Positions 2,384 through 13,780 of a stretch of 46,144 nucleotides of DNA are shown here, in pieces (the stretch's first letter is position 1; every line of letters starts with the position of its first letter). Both the position numbers and the translations under genes were made by a program. Source of the DNA: Elusimicrobiota bacterium (lineage in GTDB: Bacteria; Elusimicrobiota; Elusimicrobia; UBA1565; UBA9628); the NCBI GenBank assembly GCA_016218575.1, contig JACRDN010000008.1, positions 1-46,144 on the forward strand, given 5' to 3'. Below the pieces are notes generated by a model. That model saw only the letters and a list, made by a program, of their open reading frames with translations. It had not been told where the DNA came from and did no database searches.

Positions 2384-3838
2384 CTAAAGAGGTCCCGGCT
2401 TTCGACGCGGCCCCCGGGCGGTCGCCTCAGGCGCAAGGCCACGGCGGTCCTTGAGCGCCCGTGCCCGCTCGAGTATGTCCCGGACCATCTCGGGGCGCAG
2501 GTAGCCCAGGGAGGGCATGAAGTCGGTCATGAAGAAGCCGTAGGTGTGGGAGGCGATGAGCCCCCCGTGCGTGCCGGCGCGGCCGGCCACGGCCTTGTCG
2601 AAGACCGCCGGGCCGAAGGCGTAGCCTTCCTCGAAGCTGACGAGCACCGTGGCCGGATTCTGGACGAGGCCGCCCAGCCCGTCCCATATGCGGTGGATGG
2701 CGTCGGGGTAGCCGTGATCCCGGGTGGCCTGCCACCAGCTCGAATCCAGGGCGAAGCCGCGCACGTCGAACCGGCCCGCGGCCTTAAGCCGGCGCGCGAC
2801 GCCCTCAAGACCCAGGGGGTCTCCGGAAGAGGCCTCGTAGCGGTAACGCTCGCCCAGCCTCGCTATCACGGCCTGCCCCCGGGGTCCGACCACTTTGATC
2901 CCGCCGTCGGCGCGGAAGAGACAGAGGTCAACTCCCCTCACCCCCGAAAGGACCCGGCACATCCGCGGTGCGTTTGCGGGATCCGTATAGACGGCCGCCG
3001 CCCCGACCAGCCCGTTCTCCGGCAGGACGAAATCCTCCTTGGCCGCCAGCGCCCCGACGGGATTAAAACCCGCGGAGCGCAGGGGTCCGGCCAAGTCCAC
3101 GCGCCGGTTGGCGGCCAGGTTGTTACCGTGGTCCGAGAACATCACGATCTTGAGGGGGATCGGCAGTTCCGCCCTCGTCTTCTCAATGAGCGCGTCGAAT
3201 TCGCGCAGGAAGGCCTTGAGCCTCTCCTCGCCCTCGACATGGGCGATCGGGTCAGTTAGGCCCATGTAGGCGATGAACTGGTCGCCCTGGAAGCGGAGTA
3301 TCCGCTTCTTGAGTCCCGCGAAGGCGAGGTCGGAGAAGCCGCGGGGGAAGGCATAGGCGATGTAGCCGGGAAAGCCCAGGAAGTTGAGGGTCGGGTGGTA
3401 GTCATAGTGCTCCTTGGGCGTGGCGAAGACCTTCTTGGCGAGGCTCAAGCCCTTGAGGCGGCCGGCCGCCACGTCGTAGTAAAGCCGCTCGTAGCCGTAG
3501 GGCGTGCCGCCGGTCAGCATCTTGGAGAAGCTGGGCCGCGTCAGCGAGGGGAAAGTGCTCACGAGACGAGCCGGCTCCTGGAAAACCCTGAAATGCCCCT
3601 CGGCCTTGAGCTCCTGGATGACGCGGTAGGGAACCCCGTCTACGGCCAGGATCAGGCAGAGGAAGGGGCGCTCACGAGCCCCGGCCACGGCATCCCGCAG
3701 TTCCTCCTTCTCAATGTTCCAGTTCCGGCTCATCACCCAACGAGCGTAGAAACGGGGCAAGGCGGCCAGGCCCGCCGTCAGGAGACCGAGCGAGACAAGA
3801 GAGAACGCCAGAATCCGTGATTTTCGCGAGGCAAGCAT
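2384..3838 (-). CDS. Alkaline-phosphatase-superfamily phosphodiesterase/phosphatase, membrane-anchored
   Basis: 484 aa with an N-terminal signal-anchor helix (residues 8-28). The two-metal site of type I phosphodiesterase/nucleotide pyrophosphatase proteins is intact: Asp67 (AVDGVPY), nucleophile region FPSLTRPSF (Thr100), TDPIAH (Asp196, His200), FSDHGNN (Asp236, His237) and a distal GTHGG (His424). It probably hydrolyses a phosphodiester or phosphomonoester outside the cytoplasmic membrane; the substrate is unknown. It sits 131 bp upstream of the transporter gene on the same strand and may belong to the same phosphate or organophosphate module. A TACAAT box at 3850-3855, 11 nt before the ATG and without a Shine-Dalgarno, suggests a leaderless start. 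Confidence 0.75.
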   Translation of the reverse strand: MLASRKSRILAFSLVSLGLLTAGLAALPRFYARWVMSRNWNIEKEELRDAVAGARERPFLCLILAVDGVPYRVIQELKAEGHFRVFQEPARLVSTFPSLTRPSFSKMLTGGTPYGYERLYYDVAAGRLKGLSLAKKVFATPKEHYDYHPTLNFLGFPGYIAYAFPRGFSDLAFAGLKKRILRFQGDQFIAYMGLTDPIAHVEGEERLKAFLREFDALIEKTRAELPIPLKIVMFSDHGNNLAANRRVDLAGPLRSAGFNPVGALAAKEDFVLPENGLVGAAAVYTDPANAPRMCRVLSGVRGVDLCLFRADGGIKVVGPRGQAVIARLGERYRYEASSGDPLGLEGVARRLKAAGRFDVRGFALDSSWWQATRDHGYPDAIHRIWDGLGGLVQNPATVLVSFEEGYAFGPAVFDKAVAGRAGTHGGLIASHTYGFFMTDFMPSLGYLRPEMVRDILERARALKDRRGLAPEATARGPRRKPGPL

Positions 3839-3849
3839 AGGCTGCCCGT

Positions 3850-3855
3850 ATTGTA
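3850..3855 (-). promoter_or_regulatory. Putative -10 box (TACAAT) for the phosphodiesterase gene
   Basis: TACAAT on the minus strand ends 11 nt before the ATG at 3838, so transcription would begin about 4-5 nt before the start codon. No convincing -35 hexamer is visible and there is no Shine-Dalgarno. Confidence 0.4.
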
Positions 3856-3908
3856 CAAAAAAGCGCGGGGCGGGGGAGGGCTTAGCCGAGCCTGGGCACG
3901 TTGGTTAG

Positions 3909-3944
3909 GGTCTTAAGGCCTAGTCTAGACTAGGCCTTAAGACC
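3909..3944. promoter_or_regulatory. 36-bp perfect palindrome between divergent genes (possible operator)
   Basis: Bases 3909-3944 are a perfect inverted repeat with no loop, centred on TCTAGA at 3924-3929 and bounded by GGTCTTAAGG and its complement. It lies between the divergent phosphodiesterase and glycosidase genes, roughly 70 bp upstream of one start and 60 bp upstream of the other. No T-tract follows on either strand, so a regulator-binding dyad is more likely than a terminator. An extragenic palindrome is the alternative. Confidence 0.55.
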
Positions 3945-4004
3945 TAGCACGTTTGGGTCCTAAGTCCTATACTTTATTTCCCTGGGTTTATTTAAAATGG
4001 GCGC

Positions 4005-4847
4005 GTGAGAAGGCAAGGCCTCTCCCTGGCGCTGCTGCTTCTGCCCCTAGCCCCAGCCTCGGCCGGGACCACTACCCGCTGCTGGAAAACCGGGGACTTC
4101 CTTGGACGCGCCTACCACGTCGCCTTCATAGGGAATCCCGAGCGCAATCTTTCCATCCGCCACAAGCGCGGGGGCGAGCCATTCTCGCGAGTCCAGGACC
4201 TCGGCGTAGTGGTCACAAACGGCACCTTCTTCGATCCCATGCTGAGAGCACTCGGGGACATCCTCATTCCCGGAGAGCCCCCCTACCGGCCGCCGTGGCT
4301 GGTGAGCAAGCGAGAGCCGGGGCGCGTGGTGGACTTGAGGCGGCGCTGGGGAGTCGGCGTGCGCCGCGACGGGACCCTCGCGATAGCCCGGGGCCGCGCA
4401 GCGCTTTCCGAAATGAAGCTCTACCTCGGCGGCGCGGGAATCCTGCTCATTGGCGGCGCGGATCGGAGCGATGACAATTATCCCGAGACAGGCGTGCCCG
4501 GAATCAGCTTCCCCAGGGACGTCATCGAGCGCCGAGCCGGGCGCACCGCCCTCGGGCTTGCCCTGGAGAATGGAGAAACCATTCTTTTGATCGTAAACGT
4601 CCCCTCTCCCGTGGGACTGTTCGAGCAAGGCAGCGCTGCCCTGGGCTTGGGCGACAAGGGTGCCAGCGTCAAGGAGTTGGCCCAACTCATGAAAACCCTT
4701 GGAGCCCGGGACGCCGTGTTCTACGATGGTGGAGGCGCGTCCGCCTTCGCCGCCGGGCCGCCAGGAGCCAAGGATATCCTCGTCCCGCCAAGCAACCCCC
4801 AAGAGGACAGGAACCCCTCCCACATCATCGTAAAAGCCTGTCAGTAG
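4005..4847 (+). CDS. Secreted phosphodiester glycosidase family protein (NAGPA/DUF2233 domain)
   Basis: 280 aa with a Sec signal peptide (about residues 1-20, ending APASA). The NAGPA domain shows its landmarks: VVTNGTFFDP near residues 69-78 and a C-terminal YDGGGASAFAAG. The family cleaves GlcNAc-1-phosphodiester-type linkages in animals. In bacteria it occurs in exopolysaccharide and cell-wall contexts, so an envelope-polymer substrate is likely but unproven. GTG at 4005 is chosen because the signal peptide begins there; the upstream ATG at 3997 runs straight into a stop. TAAAAT at 3993-3998, six nt before the GTG, is a candidate -10 for a leaderless message. It is transcribed alone, convergent with the caspase-like genes downstream. 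Confidence 0.75.
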   Translation: MRRQGLSLALLLLPLAPASAGTTTRCWKTGDFLGRAYHVAFIGNPERNLSIRHKRGGEPFSRVQDLGVVVTNGTFFDPMLRALGDILIPGEPPYRPPWLVSKREPGRVVDLRRRWGVGVRRDGTLAIARGRAALSEMKLYLGGAGILLIGGADRSDDNYPETGVPGISFPRDVIERRAGRTALGLALENGETILLIVNVPSPVGLFEQGSAALGLGDKGASVKELAQLMKTLGARDAVFYDGGGASAFAAGPPGAKDILVPPSNPQEDRNPSHIIVKACQ

Positions 4848-4888
4848 CGCCGCGCAAGGCGGCAATCCCAGCCGCAGGCGGGCTTCCA

Positions 4889-6118
4889 TCATTCCCCCTC
4901 CCGCCACTGCGGCACCTGGTCGCTGTTGTAGTCGCGCCGGGCGATATTGCTGACCTGGGGCGCAGCGTAATCAAACACTTTCTTCATATCCACGGGCCCA
5001 GTGCCCGCCTGCTCCTTGATGCCTTTGAGCAGGAAGTAGGTGAAAAGCCCGTGCCGCTGCGCCTCATAGGCATGGCTGATCTGGTCCGAGGCCGAGGCGG
5101 AAAGGACCCTGATGTTGGAAGGGACAACTCCGCCCATCCTCACGTTGACCAGCGGGCGCGCGCCCTTGGCGAGAATAGAACGTCCGCCGGCGCCCGAGAA
5201 GCACGAATCCACGATGACGGAGATATCCCTGGTCGGGAGTTGGGAGAGCGCCTCATAAAGACTCTTGAGTTGGTAGCCCGTCTGTTTAAGGTACGTCGGG
5301 TCGCCGTCATAAGGCACCAAATAGGCATCGCCCGTCTCGGGATTGGGCGCGCCGTGACCCGAGTAATAGACAAGAACCTTGGCGTCCTTCTCCACGCGGT
5401 TGGGCAGCCACTGGTCAAAATATTTCTCGAAATCGCCTTTGGTCGCCTCGTCGTTGACCAGAGTGGCGACGTTGGCATCCTGATAGCCCATAACCCGCGT
5501 CAGATAGCGCGAGACAAGGCGCGCGTCCATGTCGGCGAAATCGGCGTCCGGGAGCTTCTGCCGGTACTTGCCGACGCCGATCACCACGGCATAGGCATCC
5601 CGGCGCGCCGGGGACTTGGCCGCCGGAAGGTCGTCAACGTCGGAGGCGACGCGTGCGGGCGAGAGAGCGGGCGTCTTCGGAACGCTCGCCACGATCTGCG
5701 GCCCCGAGAGCACCGCGACGATCTCCTGATACCCGAGGGCTTGAGCATACTCCAACGCCGTCGGCCGCCCCCAGCCTGGCTGCTTGAAGGCCGCCGCCCT
5801 GTCTGCTCCCGCCTCCAGCAACAAGCGCAGCGCCTCGGGCTTATTGTCCATTGCCGGCCCGTAAAGCACTGGATACCCCGAGGAGGATCTCCCGTTAGGA
5901 TCGGCTCCGCGGGCAAGGGCTTCTTTCATCCTGTCTGTCAAGCCCCATGCCCCCGCCAAGTACAGCGCCTCGATGAGCTCCTGGCGTTCGCCGCTTGCGA
6001 TCGCTTCGGCTATCCGTTTCTCGGCGGCCGCCTGTCGGCTCTCAAGAGTCGTGCAAGCGGAAAGCAGGAGCAGCAAGGCGGCAACGACGGCATTTTGGTT
6101 CCTGCCACTCCGCTTCAC
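4889..6118 (-). CDS. Caspase-family (orthocaspase-like) lipoprotein with ankyrin-type repeats
   Basis: 409 aa. The N-terminus is a lipoprotein signal (lipobox LLSAC, Cys22). Residues 45-135 contain two ankyrin-like repeats (ARGADPNGRSSSGYPVLYGP and LLEAGADRAAA...). The peptidase C14 domain starts near residue 174 (AYAVVIGVGKYR), with the catalytic dyad intact: His255 in YYSGHGAPN and Cys306 in VDSCFSGAGGR. It should be a membrane-tethered caspase-like cysteine peptidase in the envelope. GTG at 6118 is used, with GGAGG about 10 nt upstream. It is a paralogue of the gene immediately upstream, about 47 bp away, with the same caspase core and a shared linker motif VASDVD. The different N-terminal modules suggest different sensed partners. 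Confidence 0.85.
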   Translation of the reverse strand: MKRSGRNQNAVVAALLLLLSACTTLESRQAAAEKRIAEAIASGERQELIEALYLAGAWGLTDRMKEALARGADPNGRSSSGYPVLYGPAMDNKPEALRLLLEAGADRAAAFKQPGWGRPTALEYAQALGYQEIVAVLSGPQIVASVPKTPALSPARVASDVDDLPAAKSPARRDAYAVVIGVGKYRQKLPDADFADMDARLVSRYLTRVMGYQDANVATLVNDEATKGDFEKYFDQWLPNRVEKDAKVLVYYSGHGAPNPETGDAYLVPYDGDPTYLKQTGYQLKSLYEALSQLPTRDISVIVDSCFSGAGGRSILAKGARPLVNVRMGGVVPSNIRVLSASASDQISHAYEAQRHGLFTYFLLKGIKEQAGTGPVDMKKVFDYAAPQVSNIARRDYNSDQVPQWREGE

Positions 6119-6165
6119 TTAGAGCGCCTCCAGAGAATCCTTGGCGGTCCGCCTGCCCAGCCCCA

Positions 6166-7452
6166 TCATTTCCCCTGCCGCCATTGCGGGTCTTGGTCGG
6201 CGTTGAGCTCGCGGCGCGCGTAGGCGCTGACTTTCGGCTTCAGGTAATCGAAGACCGACTGCATGTCGTCGCCCTTTTCCTTGAGCCCCTTGAGGAAATA
6301 GTAGGTGAAAAGCCCATGGCCCTTGTCCTGGTAGGTGTTCGAGATCTGATCGCCGGCCGAAGCCGCCATCACGGCGAGCTTGGCCGGGACATCCGTCTGC
6401 GCCACGGTGACGAGCGGCCTTGCGCCCGCGGCAATCACCGAGCGGCCGCCCGCCCCGGAGAAACACGAGTCCATGACGACGGTGATCTTCGCGGCAGGGA
6501 GCCTAGCCAAGTGCTCGTACATCTTCTTAAGCGGATAGCCGGTCTCGGCGATGTAGGTCGGGTCGCCGTCGTAAGGAACGAGATAGGCGTCGCCGGTCTT
6601 GGGATTGGGCGCGCCGTGGCCGGAATAATAGACGAGAACCTCCGCGCCCGCCTCGGCATGGTTGGGAAGCCAACGCTCGAAATATTTCTCGAAGTCGCCT
6701 TTCGACGCCTCGTCGTTGATCAGCATGGCGAGGTTGGCGTCCTGGTAGCCCAGCGCCCGCAAGTATAGCGTGACCAACTTGGCGTCAGCGTCCGCAAAAT
6801 CGGCGGCAGGCAGCTTATGCCGGTACTTGCCGACCCCGATCACGACAGCATAGGCATGAGACTTGGCCGCCGCCGCGCGCGGCGGCGCGTCGACATCCGA
6901 GGCGACCGGTGACGACTGGACCCGCTCATGCTCCGACATGGGCGCGGAGCGCGCGAATTCCGCCAGCTTCGCGGAGCCCAGCAGCGCGCTTTCCATTTGG
7001 TCGCGTGCGGCCTTGATGGCGATGCGGTTGATGTCGTCGGTCAGCAGGAACGGCCGCCCCTTCTGCCATCCATGGACGGCCAGTTCCTCGATCGACTGGC
7101 CATCTGGCTTTGAAAATCGCGCGCGCGCCTGGACGTGCGTGATCCCGAACATATTCGCGGCGTACTTGACGTTCACCGACAGGTTCACCCTCAAATCGGC
7201 ATCGCGCGCAGCGGTCTCCGCTAGCTTTTCGAGCAGGACTAGCTGAAAATGGGGTCGGAAAGCATCAATGATCTGTTCGGCGACTTGGCCGTCCGAGGCT
7301 TCTCTGGCATCTGCCGGAACGAACACCGCAAGGCTCAGGCGATTGAGAGCCAGGTTCACCGGGCGCTTCACGGCCGCCGGTGAGGCGCAGCCCGCAAGCA
7401 GCATCGTCGCGGCGAAGGATGCGAGGGCCAGTCCTCCGTACCCAGTTTTCAT
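6166..7452 (-). CDS. Caspase-family (orthocaspase-like) lipoprotein
   Basis: 428 aa from ATG at 7452 (GAGG three nt upstream, lipoprotein signal with lipobox LLAGC, Cys22). A longer in-frame start at 7683 is rejected because it would overlap the ferredoxin gene by over 200 bp and bury the signal peptide. Residues 30-165 form an unrecognised alpha/beta domain. The C14 caspase domain runs from about 199 to the end with His279 (YYSGHGAPN) and Cys330 (MDSCFSGAGGR). The linker before it contains VASDVD, shared with the downstream paralogue; whether this is a processing site is speculation. It starts five nt after the ferredoxin stop, so it is co-transcribed with peroxiredoxin and ferredoxin. Confidence 0.87.
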   Translation of the reverse strand: MKTGYGGLALASFAATMLLAGCASPAAVKRPVNLALNRLSLAVFVPADAREASDGQVAEQIIDAFRPHFQLVLLEKLAETAARDADLRVNLSVNVKYAANMFGITHVQARARFSKPDGQSIEELAVHGWQKGRPFLLTDDINRIAIKAARDQMESALLGSAKLAEFARSAPMSEHERVQSSPVASDVDAPPRAAAAKSHAYAVVIGVGKYRHKLPAADFADADAKLVTLYLRALGYQDANLAMLINDEASKGDFEKYFERWLPNHAEAGAEVLVYYSGHGAPNPKTGDAYLVPYDGDPTYIAETGYPLKKMYEHLARLPAAKITVVMDSCFSGAGGRSVIAAGARPLVTVAQTDVPAKLAVMAASAGDQISNTYQDKGHGLFTYYFLKGLKEKGDDMQSVFDYLKPKVSAYARRELNADQDPQWRQGK

Positions 7453-7457
7453 TAGCC

Positions 7458-7895
7458 TCAGCCGGGCGAAGCCGCGCTGGGCGGCGGAGACATCGTGGGC
7501 TTGAGCGACGCCGGGAGGTGGCCTTCGATGACAGCGGGCGTCTTGACATCCTTGGGCAGCAGGTCCAAGCGCTTGAAAACGGGGTGCTCGGCGTTCGGCT
7601 GGGAGTCGAGCGAAGTCTGGTGGCCGGCCACGCTCGAGGTCGGAACCATGCGAATAGTATCCCACGGGCAGTCCTTGGCGCAAAGCTGGCAGCCGATGCA
7701 GATGTCGTAGTTGACGTAGACTCCGAAGGTCGAGGGGTCGTCGCCGAATTTCTCGATGCAGCTGGGGACCGGGCAGACGGCCACGCAGACCTCGCAGCCG
7801 GTGCAGGCCCCCAAGTTGACCAGGGCCTTGATCTTGGCGCGGGAGGCGCCCTTGACCAAAGCAAGCCGCCGCGCGTCGTTCTGGGGGAGCGGCAT
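7458..7895 (-). CDS. Two-cluster 4Fe-4S ferredoxin-type protein
   Basis: 145 aa with two complete CxxCxxCxxxCP motifs: CTGCEVCVAVCP in the first third and CIGCQLCAKDCP about 33 residues later, as in 2[4Fe-4S] electron carriers. An N-terminal extension of about 25 residues and a C-terminal tail of about 60 residues flank the binding domain, so it is larger than a free ferredoxin and may dock to a partner enzyme. Its ATG overlaps the peroxiredoxin stop (TAATG), so it is translationally coupled. No dedicated oxidoreductase subunit lies beside it. Cytoplasmic, with no signal peptide. Confidence 0.85.
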   Translation of the reverse strand: MPLPQNDARRLALVKGASRAKIKALVNLGACTGCEVCVAVCPVPSCIEKFGDDPSTFGVYVNYDICIGCQLCAKDCPWDTIRMVPTSSVAGHQTSLDSQPNAEHPVFKRLDLLPKDVKTPAVIEGHLPASLKPTMSPPPSAASPG

Positions 7896-8368
7896 TAAAG
7901 CGCCCCCATGAGGCCCCGGACGTGCTCGGGCACTTTCACCTTGCGCAGGACCTGCCTCAGGCGGCCGTCGGGGCCGATAACGAAGGTGGAGCGCTCCACC
8001 CCCAGGTACTTGCGGCCGTACATGGATTTCTCCTTCCAGACGCCGTACGCTTGGCAGATTTTCCTGTCCTCGTCCAGGAGCAGAGGGAAGGGAAGGGCGT
8101 GCTTTTCCTTGAAGCTGCGGTGGGACTTGGCGGGATCGGGGCTCACGCCCAGGACCACCGCGCCCTTTTTGAGGAAGGCTTCGTGGTTGTCTCGAAAATC
8201 GCAGGCCTCAACCGTGCAGCCCGAGGTATGATCCTTGGGGTAGAAGTAAAGGACGACGGTCTTGCCCCGGTATTGCTTGAGGCTTTGGGAGCGGCCCGCC
8301 TCGTCCGTCGTCTCAAAAGCGGGAGCCGCGTCCCCGACCTGCAACTCAGCCGCTGCCTTGATCGCCAT
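7895..8368 (-). CDS. bcp: Peroxiredoxin, BCP/PrxQ type
   Basis: 157 aa, the usual length for the thioredoxin-dependent bacterioferritin comigratory protein. The peroxidatic cysteine is in SGCTVEACDFRD, with the resolving cysteine five residues later (CTVEAC), the defining PrxQ spacing. It reduces H2O2 and organic hydroperoxides in the cytoplasm. It is the first gene of the operon peroxiredoxin, ferredoxin, caspase-like, caspase-like. A clear promoter (TTGAAT, 18-nt spacer, TATACT) ends six nt before the ATG at 8368, with no Shine-Dalgarno, implying a leaderless mRNA. Confidence 0.92.
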   Translation of the reverse strand: MAIKAAAELQVGDAAPAFETTDEAGRSQSLKQYRGKTVVLYFYPKDHTSGCTVEACDFRDNHEAFLKKGAVVLGVSPDPAKSHRSFKEKHALPFPLLLDEDRKICQAYGVWKEKSMYGRKYLGVERSTFVIGPDGRLRQVLRKVKVPEHVRGLMGAL

Positions 8369-8374
8369 ATCGCA

Positions 8375-8404
8375 AGTATAGCAGTTGGCGGAAATTTAAT
8401 TCAA
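8375..8404 (-). promoter_or_regulatory. Promoter of the peroxiredoxin-caspase operon
   Basis: Minus-strand -35 TTGAAT (8404-8399) and -10 TATACT (8380-8375) are separated by 18 nt. The -10 ends six nt before the start codon, so the transcript probably begins at or within a base or two of the ATG. The -35 overlaps the last codons of the upstream glycosyltransferase gene. Confidence 0.6.
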
Positions 8405-9504
8405 CTTCGGGCGGCAAGGAGGATCTTGGCGGCCTCCCTGGCCGCGCTCGGGCGGCCGAGGGCCTTGGCCCGGGCGCGCAGGGCCTCGAGGCTCCCGTTG
8501 GAAAACAAGCGCTTGAGGCTCTCCGTCAGCGCGCGAGGAGATTGCGCCGCGATGGCTCCTCCCTGGGAGAGGAGGTAGCGCGCGTTTCTTTCCTCCTGGC
8601 CGGGGATGGGATCGACGATGGCCACGGGAAGCCCCACGGCCAAGGACTCCGCCATGGTCAGGCCCCCGGGCTTGCCGATGAGGATGTCGGAGGCGCCCAT
8701 GAGGCGGCAAAGACTCTCAGGCTCTTGGTGGGAATAGACCTGAAGGCGGCTTCCTCCGCGCAAAGCCTCCAGGTCCCGGGCCAGCGCCTCGTTGCGCCCG
8801 CATAGGGCCAGGACGTGGGCCCGCGGAAAGTCGGCGAGGAGGCTCTGCGCAATTCTCGGCAGGGGACCTAGTCCACGGCTGCCCCCGCAGAGAAAGAATA
8901 CCTGGGCCTCCTGAGGCAGGCGCAGTTGCCTCCTAGACTCCTCTTGGGGAAGCGGCATCTCGAAGGCCGGGTGGACCGGGATCCCGGTCACGTGGATCCT
9001 CTGGGGCGGGATTCCCTTCTTGCGCAAGGCCTCGGCGACCTCGGGAGTGGGGGCGAGATATATGTCCACTTCCGGACTGATCCAATAAATGTGCGCCTCG
9101 TAATCCGTGATCACTCCCGCCAGGCGCGCGGAGAGCCCCCCCCGTTTCTTCTCGAGGGCCAGGGCCGCCAAGGGCGGGGCGTGAGTACAGACAATGAGGT
9201 CGGTGCCGAGCTCCGCCAATTTCGAGCGGCACTTGCCCCCCTCCAGGAAAAGGTAGAGCCTGCGCCAGTCGCGCGCGAATTTCGCCACGGACTCGTTGTC
9301 GTAAAGAGTCGCCCAGAGACCCGGGACGCGCTTGATGACCGACAAGTAGGCCTTGGCCAGGGCCGGCCCCAGAACCGGATGGAGATCGGAGGAAATGTTG
9401 ACGCGGGCGGCCTCGCCTCCCTGGTCGGAAATGGCCTTTTCTAGAGCCAGGGCCGCGCTGGCGTGCCCGGAGGGCTCATAGCCGTAGACAAGGGCGACAC
9501 GCAC
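8401..9504 (-). CDS. GT28-family glycosyltransferase, MGDG-synthase/processive diacylglycerol glycosyltransferase-like
   Basis: 367 aa. The N-terminal half has YEPSGHASAALAL, the glycine/histidine loop that replaces the MurG GGTGGH loop in MGDG-synthase-type enzymes, and VITDYEAHIYWISPEVD, a lipid-acceptor-side motif. The C-terminal half has the nucleotide-sugar motif IGKPGGLTMAESLAVGLP followed by PIPGQEERNA. The enzyme probably transfers a sugar from a nucleotide donor to diacylglycerol or a related lipid at the inner face of the membrane. MurG is less likely because of the N-terminal motif. GTG at 9504 is used. An 8-bp hairpin (9511-9529) lies immediately upstream and could hinder ribosome access. 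Confidence 0.78.
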   Translation of the reverse strand: MRVALVYGYEPSGHASAALALEKAISDQGGEAARVNISSDLHPVLGPALAKAYLSVIKRVPGLWATLYDNESVAKFARDWRRLYLFLEGGKCRSKLAELGTDLIVCTHAPPLAALALEKKRGGLSARLAGVITDYEAHIYWISPEVDIYLAPTPEVAEALRKKGIPPQRIHVTGIPVHPAFEMPLPQEESRRQLRLPQEAQVFFLCGGSRGLGPLPRIAQSLLADFPRAHVLALCGRNEALARDLEALRGGSRLQVYSHQEPESLCRLMGASDILIGKPGGLTMAESLAVGLPVAIVDPIPGQEERNARYLLSQGGAIAAQSPRALTESLKRLFSNGSLEALRARAKALGRPSAAREAAKILLAARS

Positions 9505-9510
9505 GGGAAA

Positions 9511-9529
9511 TGCCCCGCGAAGCGGGGCA
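9511..9529. other. GC-rich stem-loop between the monoheme protein gene and the glycosyltransferase gene
   Basis: TGCCCCGC and its complement GCGGGGCA flank a 3-nt loop. There is no T-tract on the minus strand. It ends seven nt before the GTG at 9504, so a role in transcript processing or translation is as plausible as weak termination. Confidence 0.4.
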
Positions 9530-9531
9530 GG

Positions 9532-10152
9532 CTAGAGGTCGTTATCCTTGGCCAACTCCTCGTAGCGCTTGGGGTATTTGGCCTTGAAGTCGGCGACCAG
9601 CTTCTTGCGATGCTCGGCCCACTTGGCGGCGTCGGCGCCGGTCTTGCGCTGCTGGCTGTCGTGGACGAGGAACTTCCAAATCTTGGCCGCCTCGCTATCC
9701 TTGCCGCCGGCGCTGATGCCGCAGCCGGGCTTGGAGACCATCCTCTTGACGTAGCGGTTCCAGATGTTCCACTCGACCTGCCAGACCGTGTTGTCCTTGA
9801 ATATCTCCGGCTGGTCTTTCTTGAGTTTTTCGATGGAGGCCTTGCGCTCGGCCTCGTCCTTCCCAGGGAGCTCCAAGAAGCGGCTGTTGAGGGGACGCGC
9901 CGCGGTATGGCAGGACTGGCAGTTCTTTTTCTTGTCCGAACCGAGCATGATTTTATATCCGGCTTGGACGTCCTTCGGATAGCCCGCGAGAACCCCCTTG
10001 TCGAGTTCGGCGGGGCCCAAGTCGTTGGGGTAGGGATTGGCCATGGCCTTGGCCTTTTCCTCATCGGCGGCGGATTTTCCAGCGGCACGGGACGTCGCAG
10101 GCGAGAGGATGAGGCAGGCGGCTAGCGCGGCAAAAGCGGACATTTTTTTCAT
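9532..10152 (-). CDS. Exported monoheme c-type cytochrome-like protein of unknown function
   Basis: 206 aa with a Sec signal peptide (ending ATSRAAG, about residue 23) and one heme-c motif, CQSCH at 78-82. The rest is charged and helical and matches nothing I recognise. The start is ATG at 10152, preceded by AAGGAG at 7-nt spacing; the in-frame ATG at 10158 would be too close to that site. It follows the bc-complex genes on the same strand, so it may be a periplasmic electron acceptor or an accessory subunit. A strong stem-loop (10216-10247) separates it from the pentaheme gene and may set relative expression. Confidence 0.7.
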   Translation of the reverse strand: MKKMSAFAALAACLILSPATSRAAGKSAADEEKAKAMANPYPNDLGPAELDKGVLAGYPKDVQAGYKIMLGSDKKKNCQSCHTAARPLNSRFLELPGKDEAERKASIEKLKKDQPEIFKDNTVWQVEWNIWNRYVKRMVSKPGCGISAGGKDSEAAKIWKFLVHDSQQRKTGADAAKWAEHRKKLVADFKAKYPKRYEELAKDNDL

Positions 10153-10215
10153 GGGCATTCTCCTTAAAAAACGCAACGACCACGACGAAACTCCTAAAGA
10201 CGCCACGACTACAGC

Positions 10216-10247
10216 AGACGAAAGCGGCTTAGAAGCCGCTTTCGTCT
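10216..10247. other. 15-bp perfect stem-loop spanning the pentaheme cytochrome stop codon
   Basis: AGACGAAAGCGGCTT pairs perfectly with AAGCCGCTTTCGTCT across a 2-nt loop. The minus-strand stop codon of the cytochrome gene lies at the loop and the last codons form one arm. No U-tract follows on the minus strand, so it is not a classic intrinsic terminator. It may be an mRNA-stability or attenuation hairpin between bc-complex genes and the gene at 9532-10152. Confidence 0.55.
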
Positions 10248-11569
10248 TTCTTGGCGACGCTCAAGAGCCAGCTCGCCAAATCCTCCAATTCCTTGCCCTT
10301 GATTTTATCTTTCCAGCTGGGCATAAACAAGGGCGGGGTCGGGCCGTTGGGGTTGAATTTCGCGATGGCCGAGGCGGGCACCCCTTGGGCGATCTTCTTC
10401 ATGAGCTCCTCGTGGGTGTAGGTCCCGACCACGTCCACCAAGGTCGGCTCCCGGCCCTTGGCCATGTCCTTGAGCGGGTCTTCCTGCCCGGGCCCCATGG
10501 CGTTGAAATTGCGCCGGCCCTTGAGCGCGTCCAGCCCGTGGCAGCCCTGGCAGCCGTATTTCTCGAAGACGAATTTCCCGTGCCGGACCGGGTTGTAGAT
10601 GCGAGGCTGGGCCTTGGGAGGAACTGAGACGAAGTATTTATGGGGCAAAATTTCCTCGGTCATGGACATAAGAAAAGTCGTGATGGCGGCCGCTCCCTCC
10701 TGGCCCAGTTCGGCGCGGAAATCCTGCATGCCGCTGGGCGCCACGGGCTCCGGGTTGAACTGGGCGTGGGGGTCGTTGGGGGTGACCTCTATGGGGTCAT
10801 TGGTCAAATGTCCCATGATCCAGTTCTGGATGTTCCAATCGTGCCGCGGCAAGGGCTTGCCGTCCTGCATGATCCGCGAGAAATTGAAGCCCGCGATGCG
10901 CTCCAGGGGCTTGTCCGCGATGTCCTTTAGGTCCACGCTGACGATTCCCCCCTCCCCCCGTATGGCATGGCAGCCCTGGCAGCCGTGCTTGTAGAACAGC
11001 TCCTTGCCCTTGGCCGCGACCTCGGCTCCCGGGAGGGTCTCGAAATCGGCGTGGCAGCGCGCGCAGGAGGCCTGGACAAGGGAGCCCTCGAGCAGGGGCT
11101 TCTCCCAGTTATGAACCTTGCCGTGGGCGTCGACAGCCGTGAGGGCCAGGCCCTGGCCCTGGTGGCAGACCGTGCAGCCGTACTTCTGGAAAGGATGGTT
11201 CTTGACCACGGAGTCGATTTTTGGATGGGCCTTGTAGGGATGCTGGGCGAAGTCGCTGGTCAAGGTCGGGTTGGCGTACTCGTCCATGCCCACGTGGCAG
11301 GTAATGCAGCGATCGTAGCGCTGCAAGTCCTTGACGATGATCTGCTTGATCTCAAGATGCGTGCGCCGGAGCTTGGCCGCCTCTGCCTTGAGCCTTTCGG
11401 CCTCCTCGGGGCTGGCGGAGGCCGCCTTCTTATCCAGGGTTTCGGCCGCCATCTTGTAGTAGGTCCTCTGATAACCTTTCCACTCGGCCGAGTAATCGAG
11501 GGCGAAGGCCGCGGCGAACACGGCCAGGATCGCGGCGTTAAAGAAGTAGAACAGCTTTCGCAGGCTCAT
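10229..11569 (-). CDS. Membrane-anchored pentaheme cytochrome c of the bc-type complex
   Basis: 446 aa with one N-terminal membrane anchor (residues 8-24) and a periplasmic domain with five CxxCH motifs: CITCH (88), CTVCH (132), CARCH (169), CQGCH (197) and CQGCH (about 344). It starts directly after the cytochrome b stop (TAA then ATG) and is the last subunit of the Rieske, cytochrome b, cytochrome c set, so it takes the place of cytochrome c1 or f as electron exit from quinol oxidation. Multiheme cytochromes in this position are known from alternative bc complexes. Maturation would use the System II genes nearby. A strong hairpin overlaps its stop. Confidence 0.88.
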   Translation of the reverse strand: MSLRKLFYFFNAAILAVFAAAFALDYSAEWKGYQRTYYKMAAETLDKKAASASPEEAERLKAEAAKLRRTHLEIKQIIVKDLQRYDRCITCHVGMDEYANPTLTSDFAQHPYKAHPKIDSVVKNHPFQKYGCTVCHQGQGLALTAVDAHGKVHNWEKPLLEGSLVQASCARCHADFETLPGAEVAAKGKELFYKHGCQGCHAIRGEGGIVSVDLKDIADKPLERIAGFNFSRIMQDGKPLPRHDWNIQNWIMGHLTNDPIEVTPNDPHAQFNPEPVAPSGMQDFRAELGQEGAAAITTFLMSMTEEILPHKYFVSVPPKAQPRIYNPVRHGKFVFEKYGCQGCHGLDALKGRRNFNAMGPGQEDPLKDMAKGREPTLVDVVGTYTHEELMKKIAQGVPASAIAKFNPNGPTPPLFMPSWKDKIKGKELEDLASWLLSVAKKDESGF

Positions 11570-13225
11570 TTAGATGTTCATGCTGACCGCGGGAAGGGTC
11601 AGGATGTATTTGACGTTAAAGGCCAGGCGAGCTCCCATCTTAAGGAGAATGCCCATGGTGCAGACCACCAGGAACATGGTCACAAGATACCGAGCCCAGT
11701 CCACGGCACGGATGTAGCGTTGGGGCAGAAGGAAGCCGAAGTAGAAGTAGAGGTAGCCAAAAAAGATCAGCCAAATTCCCTGACTCATCGGCACCTTCCA
11801 GCCCAGGCGCGCCGCCAGCGCCAGCAAGGCCATGCCTGCGAAGAAGCAAGCCTGCGCCTTCCTGCCGTCTATGTCCTTTTGGACGAGCTTGGGCAGGAGC
11901 ATGGAGCCGGCGAAGAAAGCCCCCAGGACCGGAACGCCCATCCAAACCGGCAATTTGGCCACGTCCGAGGGGCCAAACAGGCTCCAGGTCGGGGCCGGAG
12001 CGGGCTTGGGCATGATCCAGGAGTCCCAAGGCCAGTACCAGAAATAGTTCGGCCCGCGGCAATAGTAGCCGATGAAGATGAGGATGAACCACATGGCCAC
12101 TCCCAGCATGAATAGGGCGTTGGCGAAGGGTCGCTCCTTCCAGGCATAATAGCCCACGCCCTTGGGGCTCGGGTCTATATAAGGTATGGCCATGAGGCCT
12201 GCTATGATGAGCCCTGGCACGGCCACTCCAGCGATCCAAGGATCGAAATAGACCAGCAGCTCCTGGAGGCCCACGAAATACCAGGGGGCCTTGGAGGGGT
12301 TGGTGGTAACGTTGGGATTGGCGATGCTCTCAAGCGGAGCGTTCTGCAGGACGCTCCAAAGCATCATGAAAAGCACGCAGGCCGCGGCCGCGATGTACTC
12401 CCGGACGATCAAGTGCGGCCAAACCTCGAGTTTCTCCTCGTCGGCCTGATAGGGAGCGGCTGAGAAGCTGTCCTTCCTGACCCGCCAGAAGTGGAGGATG
12501 AGGAGTATCCCCACCAAGAGGGGCACCGCCACGCAGTGGAGGACGTAGAACCGGAGCAAGGTGTTCTCGCCCACCATGGTCCCCCCCAAGAGCACGAAGC
12601 GCACGTCATTGTTGATGCGCATGCCCATGAGGGACCCGAAAGGACCCTCGTTGCCGAGCCCGGGAGTGGCCCCGGCCATGTTGGTGCCCACGGTCACGGC
12701 CCAGATGGCGAGCTGGTCCCATGGGAGAAGGTAACCCGTAAAGGACAGGAATAGGGTCAAAGTCAGAAGAAGGACTCCCACTCCCCAGTTGAACTCGCGG
12801 GGCTTCTTGTAGGCTCCGGTCAAAAATACCCGCACCATATGGGCGATGACCATGACCACCATGGCCTGCGCCGACCAGCGATGGAGGTTCCTCATGAGCT
12901 TGCCCAAGGTGACGGCGAACTCGAGATCCTTCATGTCGCGGTAGGCGAGATCTATGGTCGGCCGATAGTAGAACATCAAAAGAACGCCGGTCAGAGTCAA
13001 CAAGAGGAACAGAACGAAAGAGAGGCCACCCAAGCCCCAGGTATAGGTCCACTCAAGAGCGCGCTTGCGGGCGCGCACCGGGTGCAGGTGGAGCCATACG
13101 TTGCCGATGATGTGGGCGGCACGGTCGCGCGGCGTGTCTTTCCAGACGCCTCCGCGGAATACGCTGCGCCAAATCTGGGAGTCAATGACTTCTTTTTTTA
13201 TTTTTTCGATGTCCAGGGCGGGCAT
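11570..13225 (-). CDS. Cytochrome b, b6/subunit-IV fusion with C-terminal extension (bc complex)
   Basis: 551 aa, integral membrane. Four heme ligands are visible: His115 and His129 (14 apart) and His230 and His245 (15 apart). The 15-residue spacing in the second helix pair is the b6-type pattern. The Qo-site region reads [10 protein letters not shown], a variant of the PEWY motif. The protein continues past the usual b6 plus subunit-IV length (about 375 aa) with roughly 150 residues forming about four more membrane helices. It oxidises quinol and passes electrons to the Rieske protein and the heme-c subunit. It lies between the Rieske (3-nt gap) and pentaheme genes (no gap). Confidence 0.9.
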
Positions 13226-13228
13226 TTC

Positions 13229-13780
13229 CTATGCGGTGAATTCCACGAAGTACGGGGCCTTGTCCCGGCTCCCCGGCTTATTCTCCAAAACAGCCTTGTC
13301 TATGATGAGGTCCCCGGTCGCGGCGAGGTCTATCTTGGCCCGCCACAGCGGCTTGGGGGCGGGGCCCGCGATCACGTCCCCCTGGGGGTTGAAGTTCGAG
13401 CCGTGGCAGGGGCACTTGAAGCGGTTCTGGTCGTCGAACCAGTTGGGGGTGCAGCCGAGGTGGGTGCAGCGCGCCCACAGGGCGTAAAAGCCCTTTTCGG
13501 TGCGGATAACCCAAACACGCTGCTCGTTGGTCCATTTCGTGGAGACCCCGACCGCGTAATTGGCGGCCGGCCCGGCGTTAAATTTCTGCGAGGGCTCGTA
13601 AATCACGTTAGGGAAAAAGAAGCGGGCGGTGGCGGCAGAACCCGAGGCGAAGAAAGTCGCGAGCATGCTCCAGCCGACCCAGAGGAAATCCTTGCGGGTA
13701 ATCTTCGCGGCTGCCGCCGGGGCCGCGACGGGCCTGGGAGCCGGGGGTTGGGCCGCGGAAGGCTGATTAATTTCAGTCAT
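13229..13780 (-). CDS. Rieske iron-sulfur protein of the bc complex
   Basis: 183 aa. A Pro/Ala-rich N-terminus leads to one membrane anchor (about residues 32-54) and a Rieske fold with both [2Fe-2S] boxes: CTHLGC (Cys105, His107) and CPCHGS (Cys123, His126). The second cysteines of the boxes, Cys110 and Cys125, should form the usual disulfide. It transfers electrons from quinol at the Qo site to the cytochrome c subunit. First gene of the operon; a good promoter (TTGACG, 18 nt, TATTTT) ends 11 nt before its ATG. Confidence 0.93.
   Translation of the reverse strand: MTEINQPSAAQPPAPRPVAAPAAAAKITRKDFLWVGWSMLATFFASGSAATARFFFPNVIYEPSQKFNAGPAANYAVGVSTKWTNEQRVWVIRTEKGFYALWARCTHLGCTPNWFDDQNRFKCPCHGSNFNPQGDVIAGPAPKPLWRAKIDLAATGDLIIDKAVLENKPGSRDKAPYFVEFTA

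Follow-up and report, generated by a model that had tools for sequence, protein, structure and literature searches.

Few functions have been assigned to the bacterial relatives of caspases. In the excerpts of the literature considered here, DUF4384 is described as an accessory domain in 23 cyanobacterial orthocaspase proteins (PMC8283722), in several cyanobacterial cases of another study (PMC7475262), and in an alphaproteobacterial clade of pseudo-orthocaspases (PMC6426788), and Elusimicrobia appear in 2012 among the groups listed as lacking metacaspases (PMC3501461). In the phylum Elusimicrobiota, we found a match to the caspase domain C14 in 75 of 340 genomes, with at least 21 matches in one of them. 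The stretch analysed here (the window) comprises the 46,144 nucleotides of contig JACRDN010000008.1 (C8) of an Elusimicrobiota bacterium (assembly GCA_016218575.1, 2.82 Mb, labelled G000). It carries genes for a PrxQ peroxiredoxin (prx), a ferredoxin (fdx) and two caspases (caspB and caspA); a third caspase gene of this genome lies on contig C23. A first-pass annotation had interpreted prx, fdx, caspB and caspA as a unit under one promoter, in which proteolysis in the envelope was tied to oxidative stress. Our results speak for envelope orthocaspases whose modules are exchangeable rather than for such a redox-proteolysis unit. In our best explanation, to which we give a probability of about 0.5, both proteins are exported, lipid-anchored orthocaspases with swappable N-terminal modules, belong to a widespread bacterial subfamily whose usual partner is a DUF4384 protein, and are expressed at this locus with a respiratory run of genes.

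Catalytic cassette, joint and N-terminal modules of the two caspases

The two proteins matched the C14 domain PF00656 with 63.6 and 62.1 bits (gathering cut-off 21.4) and both contained a complete His/Cys dyad (Table 1), in agreement with their initial description as caspase-domain proteins. In a 61-row alignment drawn from several phyla, the catalytic His was invariant and the Cys was present in at least 90% of the rows. The Asp found two residues before the catalytic Cys (D328 in caspB) was also invariant; we take it to be the acidic-S1 signature of Arg/Lys-specific relatives, and the caspases are predicted to cut after Arg or Lys. Structural models of caspA and caspB showed confident catalytic domains with a caspase fold, the top matches being MALT1, Arabidopsis metacaspase 4 and, for caspB, also procaspase-6, which were tied at a Z score of about 22 (root-mean-square deviation of 2.2-3.3 over 200-209 residues). 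Orthocaspases are characterised by a p20 without a canonical p10; here, both the Pfam hit to C14 and the part of the model that aligned extended past the p20 to the C-terminus. Altered active sites were seen in some related loci. At L072:4875-6254, a caspase in which the catalytic Cys is replaced by Gly (DAGFSG) directly precedes an intact one, likely forming a pseudo-enzyme pair. Two Nitrospirota loci, L130:1892-13209 and L114:7173-15869, contained six and four caspase open reading frames (ORFs) on one strand, and two of the six in L130 were devoid of the usual Cys or His motif.

Both caspases displayed a lipobox ending at Cys22 (LSAC and LAGC) after a hydrophobic stretch, as read by eye. A lipobox was found with a regular expression in 105 of 159 distinct sequences, a rough count as the ORF starts were uncurated. 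Lipoboxes and intact active sites together suggest that the proteins are exported and lipid-anchored, consistent with the membrane-tethered envelope proteases originally proposed.

The motif VASDVD was found before both catalytic domains, as had been noted earlier. It belongs to a joint, SDxDxxP, of which D186 and P191 (caspB numbering) were invariant in the 61-row alignment, while S185 and D188 were present in at least 90% of the rows. The strict motif occurred in 95 of the 159 sequences, and close variants in many of the remainder. This linker is a conserved joint, with the constant catalytic cassette on one side and N-terminal modules that are interchangeable on the other. In caspB it was modelled with confidence, the mean predicted local distance difference test score (pLDDT) being 87 for residues 181-190 and 98 for residues 191-200. 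Because of this high-confidence linker and of the predicted Arg/Lys specificity, autocleavage at VASDVD seems unlikely. The loop that follows the catalytic Cys of caspB (residues 332-351, pLDDT below 50) contains two conserved arginines, R337 and R345, which may be likelier sites for a maturation cut.

The N-terminal module of caspB had no match in Pfam at an E value of 0.01, and structure searches with this protein were filled by catalytic-domain matches. The ankyrin repeats announced for caspA are degenerate, Ank_2 scoring 19.6 bits, below its cut-off of 27.3; the region matched an iterated profile of caspase N-termini seeded with caspA itself (E 3.8e-25), five other tested members of which passed ankyrin cut-offs. 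Modules of the ankyrin type and of the caspB type each recurred in Elusimicrobiota and in other phyla. The caspA protein shared 84-86% catalytic identity with its syntenic sister in genome G014, and caspB 85% with its sister in G011, without detectable N-terminal similarity in either case. More generally, among 147 pairs with 80-90% catalytic identity, 62 had N-terminal homology detectable by BLAST and 85 did not. Some relatives carried additional features. EF-hand-like stretches near the C-terminus were found in L145:10810-12381 (Pfam E 0.016, under the cut-off) and, by eye, in L068:8494-9942; visual inspection of caspA and caspB showed none. At L038:7883-13720 of G014, a 923-residue transglutaminase-like (DUF553) protein is encoded between two caspases, the second of which has a caspB-type module.

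DUF4384 genes beside caspases

To look at recurrent neighbours, we clustered by single linkage 623 ORFs lying at most 3.5 kb from a caspase in the window and in loci L033-L151; these and the other neighbour, tandem and upstream counts are based on mechanically called ORFs. The largest cluster comprised 28 ORFs in 26 loci. The two members tested with Pfam were DUF4384 proteins over the cut-off, one of them matching also LPP20, and the other 26 were assigned by BLAST only. Most of these ORFs (23 of 28) had a caspase no more than 300 nt away, in 22 cases on their own strand. A member of the cluster was present in 25 of the 79 distinct loci that correspond to the best 80 of 492 confirmed caspase places in GTDB.

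Further evidence for an association was obtained by comparing 117 related genomes: DUF4384 was found in 48 of the 55 genomes with a C14 match and in none of the 62 others. Four genomes from outside the Elusimicrobiota, all with DUF4384, were excluded from these counts, having been picked among caspase carriers. In the 340 genomes of the phylum, a hand count gave 56 genomes with both domains, 19 with C14 only, 6 with DUF4384 only and 259 with neither. The two domains tended to co-vary within families f2, f3, f5 and f9, with G047, which has C14 only, as an exception. In the genome of the window, the only DUF4384 match adjoins the third caspase gene (contig C23, L068:8494-11072), the two genes being convergent and 2 nt apart. 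We infer that the DUF4384 protein is a partner of the caspases of this subfamily. In the excerpts of PMC8283722, PMC7475262 and PMC6426788, with a single search behind this negative result, DUF4384 was nowhere described as a gene of its own next to that of a caspase. A protease organised as lipid anchor, module, joint and catalytic domain, together with DUF4384 as a separate partner with strong statistical backing, provides a concrete and testable pair.

Gene order around the caspases

The genes prx, fdx, caspB and caspA are arranged head to tail on the minus strand, as described in the first-pass annotation (Table 1). The two caspase genes are separated by 47 nt, and a convergent gene with a NAGPA domain (phosphodiester glycosidase; 4005-4847) ends 41 nt from caspA. 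The identity of both redox proteins was borne out. The prx product exceeded the cut-off of the NCBIfam model PRK09437 (151.1 bits versus 140) and has the expected pair of cysteines; it also matched the Deinococcus-type PrxQ model NF053650, below its cut-off. The ferredoxin scored 46 bits with Fer4_7 (cut-off 27) and contains nine cysteines, including two CxxCxxCxxxC runs, as a 2[4Fe-4S] protein. By eye, the N-termini of PrxQ and of the ferredoxin are devoid of a signal sequence; these two proteins should therefore be cytoplasmic, the caspases being expected to be exported.

Table 1. Features of the caspase locus and of the genes upstream of it, with their positions in the window.
Feature	Position	Strand	Remarks
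caspA	4889..6118	-	predicted lipoprotein caspase; 409 aa from a GTG start; N-terminal module of degenerate ankyrin repeats; C14, His255/Cys306
VASDVDDLP joint in caspA	5624..5650	-	between ankyrin module and catalytic cassette
caspB	6166..7452	-	predicted lipoprotein caspase; 428 aa; no Pfam match in N-terminal module; C14, His279/Cys330
VASDVDAPP joint in caspB	6880..6906	-	Asp186 and Pro191 invariant, 61-row alignment
fdx, 2[4Fe-4S] ferredoxin	7458..7895	-	1-nt start/stop overlap with prx; 5 nt to caspB
prx, PrxQ/BCP peroxiredoxin	7895..8368	-	Cys51, Cys56; no signal peptide by eye
Promoter-like site TTGAAT-18-TATACT	8375..8404	-	at chance level
Glycosyltransferase, MGDG-synthase family	8401..9504	-	PF06925 over cut-off; upstream in same run
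Cytochrome c-like protein	9532..10206	-	one CxxCH; no Pfam match
Multihaem cytochrome c	10229..11569	-	5 CxxCH
Cytochrome b	11570..13225	-	Pfam
Rieske protein	13229..13780	-	Pfam

Five further minus-strand genes were found upstream, from the Rieske gene (13780) to the glycosyltransferase gene (8401), with gaps of 0-32 nt between ORFs. The run reads Rieske protein, cytochrome b, multihaem cytochrome c, second cytochrome, glycosyltransferase (which also matched diglucosyl diacylglycerol synthase models below their cut-off), prx and fdx, followed by the caspases. The whole order from Rieske to fdx was present in G000, G011, G014, G034 and G037, the glycosyltransferase being split into two ORFs in G037. 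G002 and G006 showed the run cut at one side, with one inserted gene in G006, G038 had the run without prx, and the remaining members of the family had prx-fdx with different upstream genes. The caspases form the end of this longer, respiratory run, with which they are probably co-transcribed in this genome, to judge from the tight spacing and the conserved order upstream.

A scan of positions 3800-11800 revealed a single promoter-like site on the minus strand (8404-8375), against 1.0 expected in shuffled sequences. A single dedicated promoter before prx was rejected on this account, and the proposal that the four genes share one promoter was not borne out, as the run extends five genes upstream. 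The scan for terminators found none between fdx and the caspases, the sole terminator-like site on the minus strand lying inside prx.

The ferredoxin was present in 32 of the 117 related genomes, 15 of which belong to the family of the window. The surroundings of fdx were examined for gene order in 29 of these 32 genomes (the weak matches in G060, G068 and G069 being left aside). In the family, prx directly preceded fdx in 14 of the 15 genomes and a caspase gene directly followed it in 4 (G000, G014, G033 and G043), the sequence downstream of fdx being short in G038 and G028. The gaps between fdx and the caspase gene were 5 nt in G000, 13 nt in G014, 12 nt in G033 and about 2 nt in G043 (assuming a GTG start); G043 also had an additional prx-fdx copy without a caspase. 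No such adjacency was seen outside the family in the regions fetched. Caspases were present in 17 of the 32 genomes with the ferredoxin and in 38 of the 85 without it (Fisher p 0.53). Near the caspases of the 79 GTDB loci, prx/fdx was found once, in a locus that is apparently that of G014; the nearest caspases among these best 80 of 492 places came from Elusimicrobia genomes, and the fdx-adjacent caspases of G033 and G043 are too distant to be included, so that 1 of 79 understates the link. The first-pass annotation expected the four genes to co-occur elsewhere. This was half borne out, prx-fdx-caspase recurring in G014, G033 and G043.

We constructed a tree of the 159 distinct catalytic domains obtained from 188 hits, using a quick search, with support values from the Shimodaira-Hasegawa-like approximate likelihood ratio test (SH-aLRT) only; long-branch warnings concerned other parts of the tree. 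In this tree, caspA was sister to the fdx-adjacent caspase of G014 (SH-aLRT 100), and its lineage is thus retained at the fdx locus in two genera (G000 in g1, G014 in g8). The sister of caspB was a G011 caspase encoded elsewhere in its genome (SH-aLRT 99), and the fdx-adjacent caspases of G033 and G043 formed a distant pair (SH-aLRT 100). A recent tandem duplication at the origin of caspA and caspB was rejected, as they belong to different subclades, the nearest relative of either one being found in another genome. Because caspA/G014 and G033/G043 are separate in the tree, the place downstream of fdx gained caspases at least twice. This recurrence in at least two lineages, with gaps of about 2-13 nt, makes co-expression plausible; either co-expression was favoured or caspases collect at the ends of operons.

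The N-termini of 67 Elusimicrobiota-side caspases were also grouped by profile comparison (6 of 73 having been dropped as their N-termini were shorter than 60 residues). Among the fdx-adjacent proteins, caspB was linked to those of G033 (99.8%) and G043 (97.5%), and that of G014 to that of G043 (96%); caspB and the G014 protein had no direct link, the latter reaching the group via G043 (56% to G033). We did not retain this group as a signature of fdx-adjacent caspases, as it includes 21 of the 67 proteins and was defined from these four, of which those of G033 and G043 are sisters.

Caspase genes were also found within a microcompartment-type gene set. At L066:2102-9387, Pfam identified tandem caspases interleaved with PTAC, an aldehyde dehydrogenase, a bacterial microcompartment (BMC) shell protein and rpiB. 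BLAST clustering indicated loci of this type in L067/L077, L069/L079 and L073. Nine rpiB-type ORFs (three confirmed with Pfam) directly preceded nine caspases, with a 4-nt overlap in 7 of the 9 cases. A literature search for operons combining microcompartments and caspases, judged by titles and the beginnings of abstracts, gave nothing on topic among the papers listed.

Alternative explanations and comparison with known systems

In the explanation that we prefer, the constant C-terminal cassette, starting at the SDxDxxP joint, would be placed behind interchangeable N-terminal modules, whose most likely role is the sensing or binding of something located in the envelope. A binding or release event at the module would probably relieve or assemble the protease, which should cut after Arg or Lys like metacaspases and MALT1. 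Co-transcription with the run of respiratory, glycosyltransferase, PrxQ and ferredoxin genes would set the timing of caspase production, an action on peroxide not being required. Such proteases could serve in cell death, in quality control or in signalling. Several observations weigh against this explanation or parts of it. The sensing role is a deduction, and the N-terminal model of caspB is poor (block means of 36-62). Missing N-terminal similarity in BLAST may stem from divergence no less than from swapping. Procaspase-6, which is Asp-specific, tied with MALT1 for caspB, so that the fold ranking does not distinguish Arg/Lys from Asp specificity. The association of DUF4384 with C14 is looser across the phylum, where each also occurs alone, and partly phylogenetic, the relatedness of the genomes inflating the counts. 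Among 14 control genomes, those of Thermus, Deinobacterium and Thermotoga had a DUF4384 match but none to C14, and the contig of the window had no DUF4384 match. Finally, the repeated placement of more than one caspase lineage behind fdx hints at something beyond hitchhiking.

This placement, with its tight spacing in 4 of the 15 family genomes, also fits an explanation in which the caspases are switched by a redox state that PrxQ and the ferredoxin establish or signal, as part of a response to oxidative stress or of cell death. The single loose profile group joined by the N-termini of the fdx-adjacent proteins goes in the same direction, though with nearly a third of the caspases in that group. 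We consider a redox switch unlikely, in view of the independence of caspase and ferredoxin across genomes, of the near absence of prx/fdx from the GTDB caspase loci, and of the different compartments predicted for the two sets of proteins; all three also spoke against the proposed tie of proteolysis to oxidative stress. Furthermore, no regulatory disulfide is obvious, because the catalytic Cys is the only cysteine of each caspase besides that of the lipobox. The possibility that expanded, mobile caspase genes merely land at operon ends, their place behind prx-fdx being functionally meaningless, has more in its favour, and we regard it as a serious, if minority, explanation. It agrees with the multiplication of C14 matches in one genome, with the 30 of 80 loci in which another, co-directional caspase gene lies no more than 300 nt away, and with the caspases of the microcompartment-type run. 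It does not readily account for different lineages lying directly behind fdx with such small gaps, or for the persistence of the caspA lineage at this locus in two genera.

A role of the caspases as executioners in an anti-phage or abortive-infection system appears improbable. The generic caspase model of PADLOC did match both proteins (E 6.3e-18 and 3.6e-15), and a constant protease combined with variable domains recalls the logic of EACC1/EACC2 (PMC8195603, in excerpt). Both scored, however, 81.4 and 73.3 bits with the model for the EACC1-associated caspase, NF047832, below its cut-off of 140. The flanks searched for defence genes with Pfam (891-2252, 2384-3838, 4005-4847 and 8401-13780, the rest of the window lying outside this search) encoded major facilitator superfamily, phosphodiesterase-like, NAGPA, glycosyltransferase and cytochrome proteins and no known defence partner. 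Among the five proteins submitted to PADLOC, caspA was weakly matched by PDC-M72A in its ankyrin region, and fdx, prx and the DUF4384 protein had no match. A speculative extension of envelope orthocaspases with exchangeable modules, to which we give limited credence, is a sensor-swapping family, in which a single cassette would have been joined, through recombination at SDxDxxP, to numerous envelope modules; tandem copies placed behind different metabolic operons (respiratory bc/Prx/Fd, microcompartment) would each report on the co-expressed system and signal via a shared DUF4384 protein. Overall, the association of the caspases with the antioxidant genes next to them seems for the most part incidental. 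Adjacency in a single genome can mislead, the eye-catching antioxidant neighbours not being the recurrent partner.

Among known systems, the upstream genes resemble a bc-type cytochrome operon in content and order (Rieske, cytochrome b, cytochromes c), with the difference that the run extends into glycosyltransferase-prx-fdx in several members of the family, and into caspases in few. PrxQ is a PrxQ/BCP protein by its PRK09437 score and its Cys51/Cys56 pair, its only oddity being the pairing of its gene with one for a ferredoxin, which is conserved in this clade. EACC1 and EACC2 share with the caspases studied here the combination of a constant caspase and highly variable domains, and activation there was proposed to involve a stimulus-triggered autopeptidase; in EACC2, which is said to be organised like EACC1, the variable part is C-terminal (excerpts of PMC8195603), whereas it is N-terminal here. 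The caspases also resemble the orthocaspases and metacaspase-like C14 proteins (PF00656), which have the same domain, His-Cys dyad, acidic residue and caspase/MALT1/metacaspase fold. In the excerpts of the papers cited at the outset (PMC8283722, PMC6426788, PMC7475262), DUF4384 is part of the caspase protein, whereas the caspases described here are marked by a predicted lipoprotein anchor, an SDxDxxP joint, a variable front module and a separate DUF4384 gene.

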